Below, piece by piece: positions 21,261 to 28,543 of a DNA stretch of 45,803 nucleotides (position 1 is its first letter; each line of letters begins with the position of its first letter). Origin of the DNA: a virus; the IMG/VR virus record IMGVR_UViG_3300037487_000506, positions 1 through 45,803 of that record. One strand, 5' to 3'. Both the position numbers and the translations under genes were made by a program. The notes under the pieces are model-generated. The model had not been told where the DNA came from. It saw only the letters and a program-made list of their open reading frames with translations, and searched no databases.

Positions 21261-22199
21261 TTATTGATTTTGCTCAATAGTATAAGCAAACCATGTTGTT
21301 CCACCATCATATGTTAAAAATGAAAATGTATCAAATTTGCCATTTAAACAAGTTAATGTTGGTGGAACTCCAGCAGCCCATTTAAATGATGCAGGCCATG
21401 CAATTGTAAAAACAGTATTTGAATTGAATGTTACTTGAAAAACAATTGAAGCAAGATTTGGGGATACTGGAGTATTTGATAAAGTGAAAGTTGAAATAGT
21501 TGCACTTAATGTAGTAGTAAAAAAATTAGCTAAACTCAAATCCAAGGTAATTGCTCCACTGGATATTGTAGAGTTTTGGCGAGTTCCAGTAATTGTTTTA
21601 TAAGCAACATTCCCAGTAAATGTTTTAGAAGCAGTTATTGTTTGAACAGTGTCTGTTGTAACTGTATTTGCTGCTGCCACACCAGTTGCCCCAGTTGATC
21701 CCTGCGTTCCTATTCCGGTGGCCCCGGTAGCCCCGCTTGCGCCTTGGACTCCAACGCCAGTAGCTCCAGTTGATCCTTGTCCCCCAATAACGCCAGTAGC
21801 TCCAGTTGAACCAGTAGCTCCAGTTAAACCTTGTGTTCCTGTTCCAGTTGCCCCAGTAGAACCTTGAATCCCTGTTCCTGTAGCACCAGCAACTCCCGTT
21901 GCCCCAGTTGCCCCTGTAGGCCCACCACTTGGCCCCGTTGCTCCAGTAGCGCCACCTATGCCTTGTAATCCTACTCCAGTGGCTCCCATCTGACCAGTTG
22001 CCCCAGTAGAACCTTGTCCGCCAACGCCAGTCGCTCCAATAGGCCCAGTTGCACCACTTGCACCAATTCCAGTCGCACCAGTAGCTCCAGTAGCCCCAAC
22101 ATAATTCCAATTACAATCGTTTTGTTGACCCGGCAATTGATTAGGATTGCAAGGGGCGCATGATTGAGGCCCAGTTGTCCAAATTACTTTTTGAGTCAT
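21261..22199 (-). CDS. Collagen-like fiber protein, 312 aa
   Basis: After a Cys-containing amino end ([17 protein letters not shown]) come about 140 residues of Gly-X-Y triplets dominated by GAT and G-S-T-G-A-T units (about 35-175). A non-collagenous carboxyl domain follows (starting [20 protein letters not shown], which recalls fiber-shaft beta sequence) and extends about 135 residues. Gly-X-Y runs form trimeric rods; the end domain would trimerise or bind a receptor. Threonine in the third triplet position makes the rod a candidate for O-glycosylation. The gene starts four bases after the stop of the GC-rich 142-residue gene. Confidence 0.8.

Positions 22200-23342: not shown

Positions 23343-23343
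<1 letters not shown>
22639..23343 (-). CDS. LamG/lectin-like tail protein, 234 aa
   Basis: The protein begins MRARQRHFNPRDAGASMALD and continues with jelly-roll-like strands: PIVRFVGGVATQDYYELSS, FATITYKATTATPALYLFDA and the closing IRKRLENAAAFSFKIAC. The plan (amino lead, FVGG, a short beta block, then DGDMASVTIYKNG) fits the LamG/concanavalin fold found in carbohydrate-binding phage tail proteins. The start overlaps the collagen-fiber stop by one base (TAATG). It may be attached to the fiber or form a baseplate-side receptor-binding module; which is unknown. Confidence 0.65.
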
Positions 23344-25412
<2,069 letters not shown>

Positions 25413-25785: not shown

Positions 25786-26994
25786 TTACAGACCAGTCGA
25801 TGATGTCGAGCAAGCGGCAGCAACTCCGTCAAACGGGCAACGCTTGTAGACAATGGCGCACACATTCTGCGGGCGAATCGGTTGAATCGCACGAGAGATT
25901 TGGTAAATGTGCTGACCAAAATCACCGTAAAGGTTGCAATCGTTGTCGCGGAAGTAAGTCCACTCAAGCTCACCCATTGCAAGTTGAGGAGCGAACTTGA
26001 AGGTTCCCTCGCCAACATACTGTTCGGGGATGAGACGCTTGAAGGCTTCGCCAGCAATAACGAACATAACCTCGTAAGGAGCGGCAACCCAAGCTGGATT
26101 GCGGCGTTGAGCAAATCCATTCGTAACAGCAGTGCTGACGATAGGATTGACCAAAACAAGGTTGCCAGAACCATCAAATCCGGTGGCGCGGAGAGGCTGT
26201 TGGTCGATACCAAAAGCAAAACCACGGTAACCCATAAACTGATATCCGCTGATGGACTCTTCACCGAGCTTGAAGCTGCCAGCGGAGAGATACAACAGGT
26301 CTTCTTTAACATCAGCATCGTTACGGAGCACTTCGATCTGATCAGCAGAAGCGAGAACTTGGAAGAACTCACCATCTTTGGAGGCGAAAGGTTCAGCAAG
26401 CATCTCTTCACGCAGGAATGTTCCAATGCGATACAGAGTTTTGAAGTTCATCGGCGCATCGGGAAGGATGGCGGCAAACTGGGTATTGATCTGCTGCATA
26501 TCACCAGTAAGGTTCTGCGAGAAAGATTGAGTGCTGTTGCTCACATACTTAATACCGGACTGGATCAGATATTGATAGCGGATGTCGGCGTTGATAAGTT
26601 GAAGGATCGTTTTTTCAAGCGAAACTTGAGCTTGGAGATAACTGCCTTTGAAAGCAGTGCGAGCTTGCTTAACGCAAACGCGAGGGCCAGCACCACGAAG
26701 AGTCTGAAGCTGGAACTGATATTCAGTCGAGCCGACTTGATCGGGAGTAGCACCAATGCCACAAAGCGTAGTGTCATTCACGAATGTAGGAGAAGCGAGC
26801 GAAGCGGCAGGAACTGCCATTTCCTCAACAACGCTACGGACAACATCCGAGACATTGGGGAGAGTTCCACCATCAATCGAATTGACATATGGAGATTTAC
26901 GGGCAAGCACTCGGCCAATCTGACCGATAATGCGGTTTACATCTTTAGAAGCGAAATCTTGAATCGCTGCAAGTGGGATACAATCGTTAGGCAT
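25786..26994 (-). CDS. Major capsid protein, 402 aa
   Basis: The size, position after the scaffold side of the cluster and before the fibers, and a higher G+C composition than most neighbours fit a highly expressed shell protein. The sequence (MPNDCIPLAAIQDFASKDVN, then RIIGQIGRVLARKSPY in an amino arm, beta strands such as GFAFGIDQQPLRATGF, and the closing FRDNDCNLYGDFGQHIYQIS) resembles HK97-fold coat proteins of podovirus-like uncultured phages; I cannot name the nearest relative. Its leader holds two inverted repeats and no SD sequence (CTAAAATTATG). A 377-codon frame on the other strand is a shadow of this gene. Confidence 0.8.
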   Translation of the reverse strand: MPNDCIPLAAIQDFASKDVNRIIGQIGRVLARKSPYVNSIDGGTLPNVSDVVRSVVEEMAVPAASLASPTFVNDTTLCGIGATPDQVGSTEYQFQLQTLRGAGPRVCVKQARTAFKGSYLQAQVSLEKTILQLINADIRYQYLIQSGIKYVSNSTQSFSQNLTGDMQQINTQFAAILPDAPMNFKTLYRIGTFLREEMLAEPFASKDGEFFQVLASADQIEVLRNDADVKEDLLYLSAGSFKLGEESISGYQFMGYRGFAFGIDQQPLRATGFDGSGNLVLVNPIVSTAVTNGFAQRRNPAWVAAPYEVMFVIAGEAFKRLIPEQYVGEGTFKFAPQLAMGELEWTYFRDNDCNLYGDFGQHIYQISRAIQPIRPQNVCAIVYKRCPFDGVAAACSTSSTGL

Positions 26995-27000
26995 AATTTT

Positions 27001-27070
27001 AGTTTTCTAATTTAGTTTTGTTTGTGTTTGGGTTTTGTTCTGCTTGAACCTACCCGTTGTTTAGAAAACT
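27001..27070 (-). promoter_or_regulatory. Long inverted repeat in the capsid-gene leader
   Basis: AGTTTTCTAA (27001-27010) is the perfect reverse complement of TTAGAAAACT (27061-27070), a 10-base stem around 50 bases. On the minus strand it ends six bases before the capsid ATG. The enclosed segment is A/C-rich and unstructured near the start. It could hold the leader open or regulate capsid translation. Confidence 0.55.
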
Positions 27071-27102
27071 TCGGGCGACATTCAAGTTGCATGGAATATC
27101 AT

Positions 27103-27120
27103 TTTCGTGATGTCACGAAA
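27103..27120. promoter_or_regulatory. Short palindrome upstream of the capsid gene
   Basis: TTTCGTGA (27103-27110) and TCACGAAA (27113-27120) form an 8-base inverted repeat around two bases. It may be an operator for a dimeric regulator or an RNA stem of seven pairs with a four-base loop. It lies immediately after the stop of the broken small gene. Confidence 0.5.
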
Positions 27121-27305
27121 TTAATCGTCCTGCTTTGGTTCTTGTTTGTTCGCCCCGGCACGCTGGGCTTGTTGTGCGGCCTGTAATGTGGATTCTTTGA
27201 CTTCCACGGAGTCACCATATACGGAATGGTTCGCCGAGATAAGTGACCTATGCGGGTTGATAGAAATATCGTCAAATGATTTTTTTTAAAAAAATATTTT
27301 GACAT
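27121..27305 (-). pseudogene. Small gene split by a frameshift in an A-run, about 61 aa if joined
   Basis: From ATG 27305-27303 the frame reads MSKYFFKKN and then implausible sequence. The -1 frame, entered at a run of eight A, reads SFDDISINPHR, SLISANHSVYGDSVEVKEST, LQAAQQAQRAGANKQEPKQDD and stops at TAA 27123-27121. This second half looks like a natural protein with a charged amphipathic helix, and joining the two gives 61 residues. Nine A instead of eight would restore one frame. A sequence error in the homopolymer, a real mutation or a programmed -1 slip on A-AAA-AAT can all explain it. It is the gene directly before the capsid gene. Confidence 0.45.
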
Positions 27306-27326
27306 ATGAAAAAAAATAATTATTGT
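27299..27326 (+). promoter_or_regulatory. Possible plus-strand promoter
   Basis: TTGACA (27299-27304), 16 bases, TATTGT (27321-27326). The -35 is a perfect sigma-70 match, the -10 has four of six bases. It faces the structured plus-strand RNA. The surroundings are very AT-rich, so chance is not excluded. Confidence 0.3.
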
Positions 27327-27387
27327 GATTTCATCTTTCTTGAATTTGTGCGGAATTCAAAACGAAACATTTTCCCTCTGGTAAAAT

Positions 27388-27426
27388 AACCCGTCTTGAT
27401 GCTGCACACATTGAGGCGGGTTTTTC
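27388..27426 (+). terminator. Terminator-like hairpin, better on the plus strand
   Basis: AACCCGTCT (27388-27396) pairs with AGGCGGGTT (27414-27422) around 17 bases, followed on the plus strand by a T-run (27421-27425). The one non-Watson-Crick pair is U-G on the plus strand but A-C on the minus. It could end a short plus transcript, or be the first stem of the structured RNA; on the minus strand it is less good. Confidence 0.45.
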
Positions 27427-27435
27427 GTTTAGCAT

Positions 27436-27955
27436 GAAGCGTAATAGCAGTTCCCTAAACGAGCCTAAAGATGAGCGTAGCACGGCAAGGTTCTATCCCT
27501 TGACTATGGAACAAATCTGTAAAGGACTCCCGTGTGAAGGAGAGGAGTTGGGAGGGGTAACAGACTACCAACTTAATACGCTTCTTCAGAAATGAAGGAG
27601 ACTGCGAATCAAGCTGGCTCTCACCGAAAGGTGTAAACTAAAGTAAGCCTCGGTTAAGGACGACCTCTGGGCGAGTGATTCATAAATGCATACGATGGCT
27701 CCATACGAGGAAGCGTTATGTTTTTAGCAGTTTCTTTCATAGGAACTGCTATGCTCCGATTTCACCACCAAAGAAGCATTAGGTTAATATATCCAAACGC
27801 TACGCTTATCAAAAATGATAAACTAAAAGAGTGTAATATTTTTAATATGTATAAAAAACACCCTCCAAAGTATGCATCGTTGAGAGGCATGGAGGGTCTG
27901 CTAATAGTAACCCGATTTGGTGCGCTTCTACGAGAGGCGTAACAGGTGTTGTTAA
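27436..27955 (+). ncRNA. Structured RNA candidate of about 520 bases
   Basis: No protein is encoded on the minus strand here, the only long non-coding gap in the window. On the plus strand many stems form: GCACGG/CCGTGT (27480-27485/27530-27535), CAAGG/CCTTG (27486-27490/27498-27502), AGTTGG/CCAACT (27546-27551/27568-27573), an 8-pair stem with GAAA loop (27581-27600), CACC-GAAA-GGTG (27622-27633), 10 pairs at 27725-27751, and a closing three-way junction AACA/TGTT (27857-27860/27947-27950) around CCCTCC/GGAGGG (27861-27866/27891-27896) and a 9-pair hairpin (27921-27941). GAAA tetraloops and G-U pairs indicate the plus strand. The size and ornate fold recall large phage RNAs such as GOLLD and ROOL (the membership is untested). 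Confidence 0.55.
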
Positions 27956-27973
27956 AAATAATCTACAATTTAT

Positions 27974-28543
27974 TTAACGCTTTTGCAAGACAAATTCAAT
28001 GAATGCTTCTACGCGATTTTCGTATGGATATGTTTGATCAACGCGAGTTCCAATTTTGTAATTATAGTTGGTGTCAATAAGGTCGCAGTAGACAATTTCG
28101 CAATTAAAGTTTTCTAACCATTCCGGCAAGCAAACATGAGTTGGAGCAGGAGAACCGGATTGCCAAAGTGAGAAGGTTGACTTGTGGTCTGGATTGAATC
28201 GACTTGGCCAAATCATACCCTCGTAAAGTTCCCACGATGGCACAGAAATCACTGCAAATCCTCCCTTGCGTAAAACCTTCAACCAAGAGTTCAGAGCAAT
28301 TTTAGGGTCACGCATATGCTCCAAGCATTGTGAAGCATGGATGTAATCGAATGATTCTTCTGGGAAGTATTGATCAAGATGGTTTGCGTCTCCGTCCTCC
28401 ATATCAAACCTGCGAACATCTGGGACATTGATCAGATCATCTCCTGCTCCAATATCAATTCCTTCTCCCTTGAATATCTTGGAAAAAAGTGGTGATTTTT
28501 CCGAGTTAAATCGACGCTCCATTGCCTTGCTTGATTCTTTCAT
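27974..28543 (-). CDS. SAM-dependent methyltransferase (class I), 189 aa
   Basis: The GxGxG-type motif GIDIGAGDD at about residues 30-38 starts the Rossmann-type fold. Motifs DVRRFDMEDGDA (the acidic SAM-ribose region) and ASQCLEHMRDP follow, and LRKGGFAVISVPSW is the usual strand-4 and post-motif region. It is a class I methyltransferase of the kind that acts on small molecules or sugars; the substrate is not deducible. Being the last gene of the glycosyltransferase cassette suggests methylation of a glycan, for example O-methylation of the transferred sugar. The leader is AACAATTATG without SD. Confidence 0.75.
   Translation of the reverse strand: MKESSKAMERRFNSEKSPLFSKIFKGEGIDIGAGDDLINVPDVRRFDMEDGDANHLDQYFPEESFDYIHASQCLEHMRDPKIALNSWLKVLRKGGFAVISVPSWELYEGMIWPSRFNPDHKSTFSLWQSGSPAPTHVCLPEWLENFNCEIVYCDLIDTNYNYKIGTRVDQTYPYENRVEAFIEFVLQKR

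Follow-up and report, generated by a model that had tools for sequence, protein, structure and literature searches.

A structured plus-strand RNA new to Rfam and an orphan abiF RNA, a candidate decoy against AbiF, in one intergenic gap of a phage genome

A gap between minus-strand genes of the virus record IMGVR_UViG_3300037487_000506 contains a real structured RNA on the plus strand, here called RNA 1, which is new to Rfam 15 and resembles the large phage RNAs GOLLD and ROOL in style only. The minus strand of the same gap carries a second RNA, RNA 2, which matches the abiF family and is likely to be a counter-defence decoy against AbiF, so that it is treated here as a candidate for that role. 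The window, i.e. the whole stretch analysed, comprises all 45,803 bases of the record. Its terminase matches PHROG 2, and searches of INPHARED with its portal and putative capsid proteins returned no named relatives.

The genes neighbouring positions 27436-27955 all lie on the minus strand. A sequence-only reading had taken this interval as a single structured plus-strand RNA beside the capsid gene. A structured plus-strand RNA is indeed present, but it extends from about 27332 to about 27750-27785, and 27860-27946 belongs to a separate, minus-strand RNA, of which 27860-27896 matches Rfam abiF. "Capsid" is an inferred label for the neighbouring protein, which has no Pfam or PHROG match. The description of the gap as non-coding holds, as the longest plus-strand open reading frames (53 and 74 aa) are interrupted at differing positions in homologs; without conservation of either, a protein-coding gap is ruled out. 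By a slight preference, the gap is read as an accessory slot containing two RNA genes that converge, RNA 1 on the plus strand and RNA 2 on the minus strand. Elsewhere in the window, the minus strand encodes collagen-like proteins (21261-22199 and 23343-25412) that contain long GATGATG repeats and probably belong to the tail.

Structure and strand of RNA 1

RNA 1 is about 440 nt long and occupies about 27332-27780 of the plus strand, its 5' end lying some 100 nt before position 27436. Members were collected from the surroundings of genes encoding relatives of the putative capsid protein and by motif scans of viral contigs, which yielded 21 further members. Their alignment reaches upstream of 27436 and stops near the 3' hairpin. 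Matches to an 18-base motif in bacterial genomes (L110 and L111) and motif matches among L105-L108 were rejected as chance matches, the rest of RNA 1 being absent there.

A sigma70-type promoter, TTGACA-16-TATTGT, was found by sequence match at 27299-27326 (plus); in so A+T-rich a region, matches of such quality are common by chance. A TTGAC-16/17-TA..T promoter block stands at the same spacing from RNA 1 in 34 distinct homologs, and from this spacing the transcript start is predicted near 27333. At the predicted start lies the 5' strand of helix P0 (CATCTTT, 27332-27338), the 3' strand of which (AAAGATG, 27467-27473) crosses P1 and so forms a pseudoknot. P0 is 97% paired and has three pairs with double changes. 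Between its strands are two hairpins, HP1 (27340-27360) and the terminator-like HP2 (27388-27422), which is associated with a U tract. The HP1 loop (TGTGCGG, 27347-27353) is complementary to the HP2 loop (CTGCACA, 27402-27408), with which it pairs.

The core, likewise on the plus strand, is closed by P1 (27432-27440 with 27698-27706; 91% of cells paired, two double-change pairs). It includes P2 and P3 (27476-27508; 100% of cells paired), P6 (GTTGG/CCAAC, 27547-27572, from the covariation alignment), the 8-pair helix P7 (27581-27600) and P8 (27606-27611/27676-27681), which encloses P10 with its GAAA loop (27622-27633) and P11 (27647-27650/27669-27672). P8, P10 and P11 together (27606-27681) are 100% paired and have eight double-change pairs in all. 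P7 and P10 correspond to an 8-pair stem and a CACC-GAAA-GGTG stem already described from the single sequence; both are present as described and covary, P7 with double changes in seven of its eight pairs. The 3' hairpin HP3 (27726-27750) is 94% paired with zero double changes. The loop of the P3 hairpin (27486-27502) is seven nucleotides long and T-loop-like, and reads TTCTATC (in the divergent member L086, TTCAATC); the T-loop is a common RNA tertiary motif.

Altogether, the structure is pseudoknotted and consists of 14 helices with 84 pairs, in which 94.6% of cells are paired (alignment A2, 22 homologs), a figure that is inflated because the helices were partly chosen on the same sequences. 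When the structure is slid by 1-3 columns, at most 41% of cells are paired. Double changes are stronger evidence than the percentage paired. They occur in 33 of the 84 pairs and in 129 cells, where shuffling gave on average 19.8 pairs and 34.6 cells and none of 500 shuffles was as good; covariation in the homolog alignment thus supports the structured plus-strand RNA that had been proposed. The kissing interaction between HP1 and HP2 stands out as well. Loops from the same RNA have a mean score of 6.5 versus 3.1 for swapped loops (0 of 5000 permutations), complementarity is found in all 25 distinct loop pairs, and each of the seven kissing pairs has double changes. Two low scorers, L004 and L087, had been misparsed, and both pair fully by eye. 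The kissing loops evolve fast and have phage-specific sequences.

Folded as a single sequence, each strand beats 100 dinucleotide shuffles (z -3.19 for plus, -3.50 for minus), and the choice of strand therefore required comparison across homologs. The equally good folding of both strands would suit the alternative that the plus-strand pairing arises secondarily, from selection for a minus-strand structured RNA or a DNA element. This alternative is nevertheless very improbable. Across the 84 pairs there are 125 GU cells, spread over 31 pairs, and 27 AC cells, spread over 14 pairs, the cells being non-independent of one another, and the consensus fold reaches -70.6 kcal/mol on the plus strand versus -53.5 kcal/mol on the minus strand. 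The conserved promoter is on the plus strand, and so is the U tract of HP2. The GU excess, the promoter and the position of the U tract all favour the plus strand, and the argument from G-U pairs put forward earlier was sound. GU and AC totals from an unbiased seed-and-extend helix search were set aside, since that search mixed genuine helices with chance ones and included the chance rows L110 and L111.

A cmscan of the whole window with all 4227 Rfam families gave one match above the cut-off, abiF on the minus strand. For RNA 1 (26950-28100, E<=10), the same 4227 families of Rfam 15 gave weak chance matches only, and the Rfam search of its divergent members was without a match. HEARO, OLE, group I and group II introns and RNase P do not match the plus-strand RNA in Rfam 15. 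GOLLD (RF02032) was rejected after cmscan and a direct covariance-model search were both negative; ROOL (RF03087) was rejected on the lack of a cmscan match and of a match at E<=10 in a direct search run without a positive control. A new RNA class, as had been suggested, is therefore upheld for the plus strand, and the supposed likeness to GOLLD or ROOL does not amount to membership.

GOLLD and ROOL are large phage RNAs for which we know of no function, and ROOL, at about 580 nt, is often found near tRNA islands. RNA 1 is, like them, a large phage non-coding RNA with pseudoknots and kissing loops. Unlike them, it has a hypervariable kissing loop at its 5' end and two alternative cores behind one common 5' domain, and it has no match to their covariance models. 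It is also shorter than ROOL, and the window lacks a tRNA island, no tRNA genes having been found in it. ROOL and GOLLD both form RNA-only cages (PMC12286853).

Spread and proposed role of RNA 1

The core DNA of RNA 1 is 78-94% identical in phages whose putative capsid homologs are only 25-28% identical. In one of them (G047), a core 94% identical to that of the window accompanies a 28% identical putative capsid homolog, whereas in another phage (G003, locus L004) the core is 84% identical and the putative capsid protein 95% identical. Given this discord, the simplest reading of the sequences is that RNA 1 has been transferred horizontally between phages. In many close relatives the same promoter and kissing hairpins are followed by a different, type II core of about 430 nt, which shows covarying helices and is without a match in Rfam. 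A type I core (L102, 142-491) and a type II core (L129, near 9038) lie at opposite ends of one 68,965-base contig with near-identical flanks; the two have the appearance of alleles that share a single slot within one population, although a genome with two copies is possible. The same promoter and kissing hairpins also precede HNH-like genes in the slot (L009:4228-4755 and L018:4880-5572, minus strand), which show a CxxC...H...CxxCH pattern and have no Pfam match. A further HNH-like gene lies in or beside the slot of L129. RNA 1 had been described as antisense to the genes around it, which applies to all genes of the window but not to a second phage lineage, in which it precedes a dCMP deaminase gene and has the same orientation.

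The favoured reading is that RNA 1 is transcribed and, while the phage infects its host, would work as a free RNA that acts in trans. It would be transcribed from its own promoter, and it folds into one pseudoknotted molecule, with the 5' pair of kissing hairpins followed by a closed multibranched core. P0 joins the 5' end to the core across HP2; as this helix crosses the hairpin, both sides of HP2 are tied into one RNA. The U tract of HP2 is kept in most members and degenerate in four divergent ones (L086, L092, L096 and L109), which, together with the span of P0, argues that HP2 is part of one RNA. The phage-specific kissing loops would join hairpins within or between RNA 1 molecules. RNA 1 passes from phage to phage as a unit, and the unrelated second core can take the place of its own.

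HP2 resembles an effective terminator, so that continuation of transcription into the core is uncertain. RNA 1 might instead be mainly a cis-acting leader or attenuator, regulating downstream transcription through its kissing hairpins and HP2 terminator. The widespread U tract would suit this role, as would the promoter and kissing hairpins placed directly before the HNH-like genes of L009 and L018, and the dCMP deaminase gene downstream in the second lineage would also fit it. It is nonetheless unlikely: the window and its closest relatives have no sense gene downstream, about 290 nt of core past the terminator are structurally conserved, P0 pairs across the terminator, and the U tract has decayed in the four divergent members.

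Just before HP3 lies an internal copy (GAAGCGTTATGTT, 27710-27722, plus strand) of the 3' boundary sequence (GAAGCATTAGGTT, 27773-27785, plus strand). Such an internal copy of the own 3' boundary occurs with both core types and is also seen in L002, L008 and L004. The two copies match better within than between phages (0 of 5000 permutations for each core type, with relatedness incompletely controlled). This agreement, the spread of RNA 1 between distant phages and the HNH-like genes within or next to the slot (L009, L018, L129) would be expected of a mobile RNA element that is non-autonomous and uses its internal copy to guide insertion or homing, with an endonuclease supplied in trans. Such an element is quite improbable, because most members have no linked enzyme, the HEARO, group I and group II families gave no match, and ordinary recombination between common flanks could move RNA 1. 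Nor was a clean empty site found: no close relative with matching flanks had a slot that was genuinely vacant, that of L009 being occupied by its HNH-like gene. Action in trans as a free RNA stays the favoured reading of RNA 1.

An orphan abiF RNA on the minus strand

RNA 2 is an abiF RNA (Rfam RF03085) at 27860-27896 on the minus strand, scoring 44.5 bits against a cut-off of 37; in bacteria, RNAs of this family are antitoxins that silence the AbiF suicide toxin. A possible second, degenerate motif follows at 27910-27946 on the same strand (23.9 bits, below the cut-off), and the second motif of the related locus L002 scores 23.2 bits. Among about 50 records of this phage group, only the window and L002 have an abiF RNA above the cut-off. 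The RNA is an orphan: no Abi_2 (PF07751) toxin gene was found in the window record, which is possibly incomplete, or in nine related contigs. An abiF-like RNA with a long loop insertion (26.9 bits) was also seen at 1501-1578 of L115 (record G036), from a phage with a type I RNA.

The GGAGGG stem of RNA 2 is followed by U6 (27858-27853, minus), so that the hairpin is probably a terminator as well, stopping the minus-strand transcript ahead of RNA 1. This feature and the presence of a single strong motif would be compatible with an operon terminator and nothing else, its likeness to abiF RNA being due to chance. That explanation is rather improbable, as unrelated phages share, letter for letter, a 15-nt stretch (GCCTCTCAACGATGC) that has no bearing on termination, and a similar plasmid copy adjoins an Abi gene. 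In this nearest plasmid copy, on pT75-VIM, an Abi family gene comes immediately after the abiF RNA, which is the cognate arrangement. In addition, the copy in the Aeromonas phage PZL-Ah8 stands at the start of a transcript and not at its end, directly behind a T7-like promoter sequence that is present in three near-identical copies within 8 kb.

Orphan abiF RNAs are found in further lytic phages, namely T7-like Aeromonas phages and the Salicola phage CGphi29. Among the isolate phages carrying abiF, the search for the toxin gene covered PZL-Ah8 and CGphi29, and neither complete record contains an Abi_2 gene. In all three Aeromonas phage loci read, the abiF RNA is located between the connector and scaffold genes. 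Orphan-looking abiF RNAs in T7-like Aeromonas phages were noted at L082 4001-4057, OM716005.1 15322-15364 and MW671054.1 2393-2432. A lactococcal phage region is said to give protection from AbiF, reportedly described by Rince in 2000.

RCd22, an RNA with two abiF motifs, binds AbiF directly and neutralises it in cis and in trans (PMC12373285). RNA 2 shares its loop and bulged stem, scores above the Rfam cut-off and may have a second motif like that of RCd22, but it is located within a viral operon and not in front of a toxin gene. Phage PhiTE provides a precedent with pseudo-ToxI, an RNA mimic of the type III antitoxin of ToxIN (PMC3475682). The antitoxin-mimic logic proposed for RNA 2 against abortive infection is the same, except that RNA 2 would mimic the AbiF antitoxin and not ToxI, and is a hairpin and not a set of tandem repeats. 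The cyanophage S-CREM1, a lytic phage, is also reported to have an abiF RNA; that RNA is described as an sRNA in a different phage with a different neighbourhood, and the accessible text of that report attaches no decoy interpretation to the RNA (PMC9964418).

The neutralisation in trans by RCd22, the orphan copies without a toxin and the precedent of ToxIN mimicry make the decoy reading of RNA 2 likely. The phage would make a minus-strand transcript that the abiF hairpin ends, and the hairpin would accumulate. Once accumulated, it would bind the AbiF of the host and keep this ribonuclease inactive, much as pseudo-ToxI of PhiTE does with its toxin. Tentatively, and with some doubt, the two RNAs may be combined into an RNA-only counter-defence island, in which a self-recognising phage RNA class with a 5' kissing module, swappable cores, mobility and private assembly stands beside the AbiF decoy.

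For phage biology, RNA 1 adds a separate class of large phage RNA beside GOLLD and ROOL. Its exceptionally clear covariation, its natural core swaps and the evidence for its transfer offer handles for genetics. RNA 2 belongs to a known family, although its orphan setting is unusual. Cas13 is considered to descend from AbiF (PMC12737573), and the orphan abiF RNAs suggest that lytic phages may disarm an ancestor-type relative of Cas13 by means of an RNA decoy. This idea is directly testable in the T7-like Aeromonas phages.
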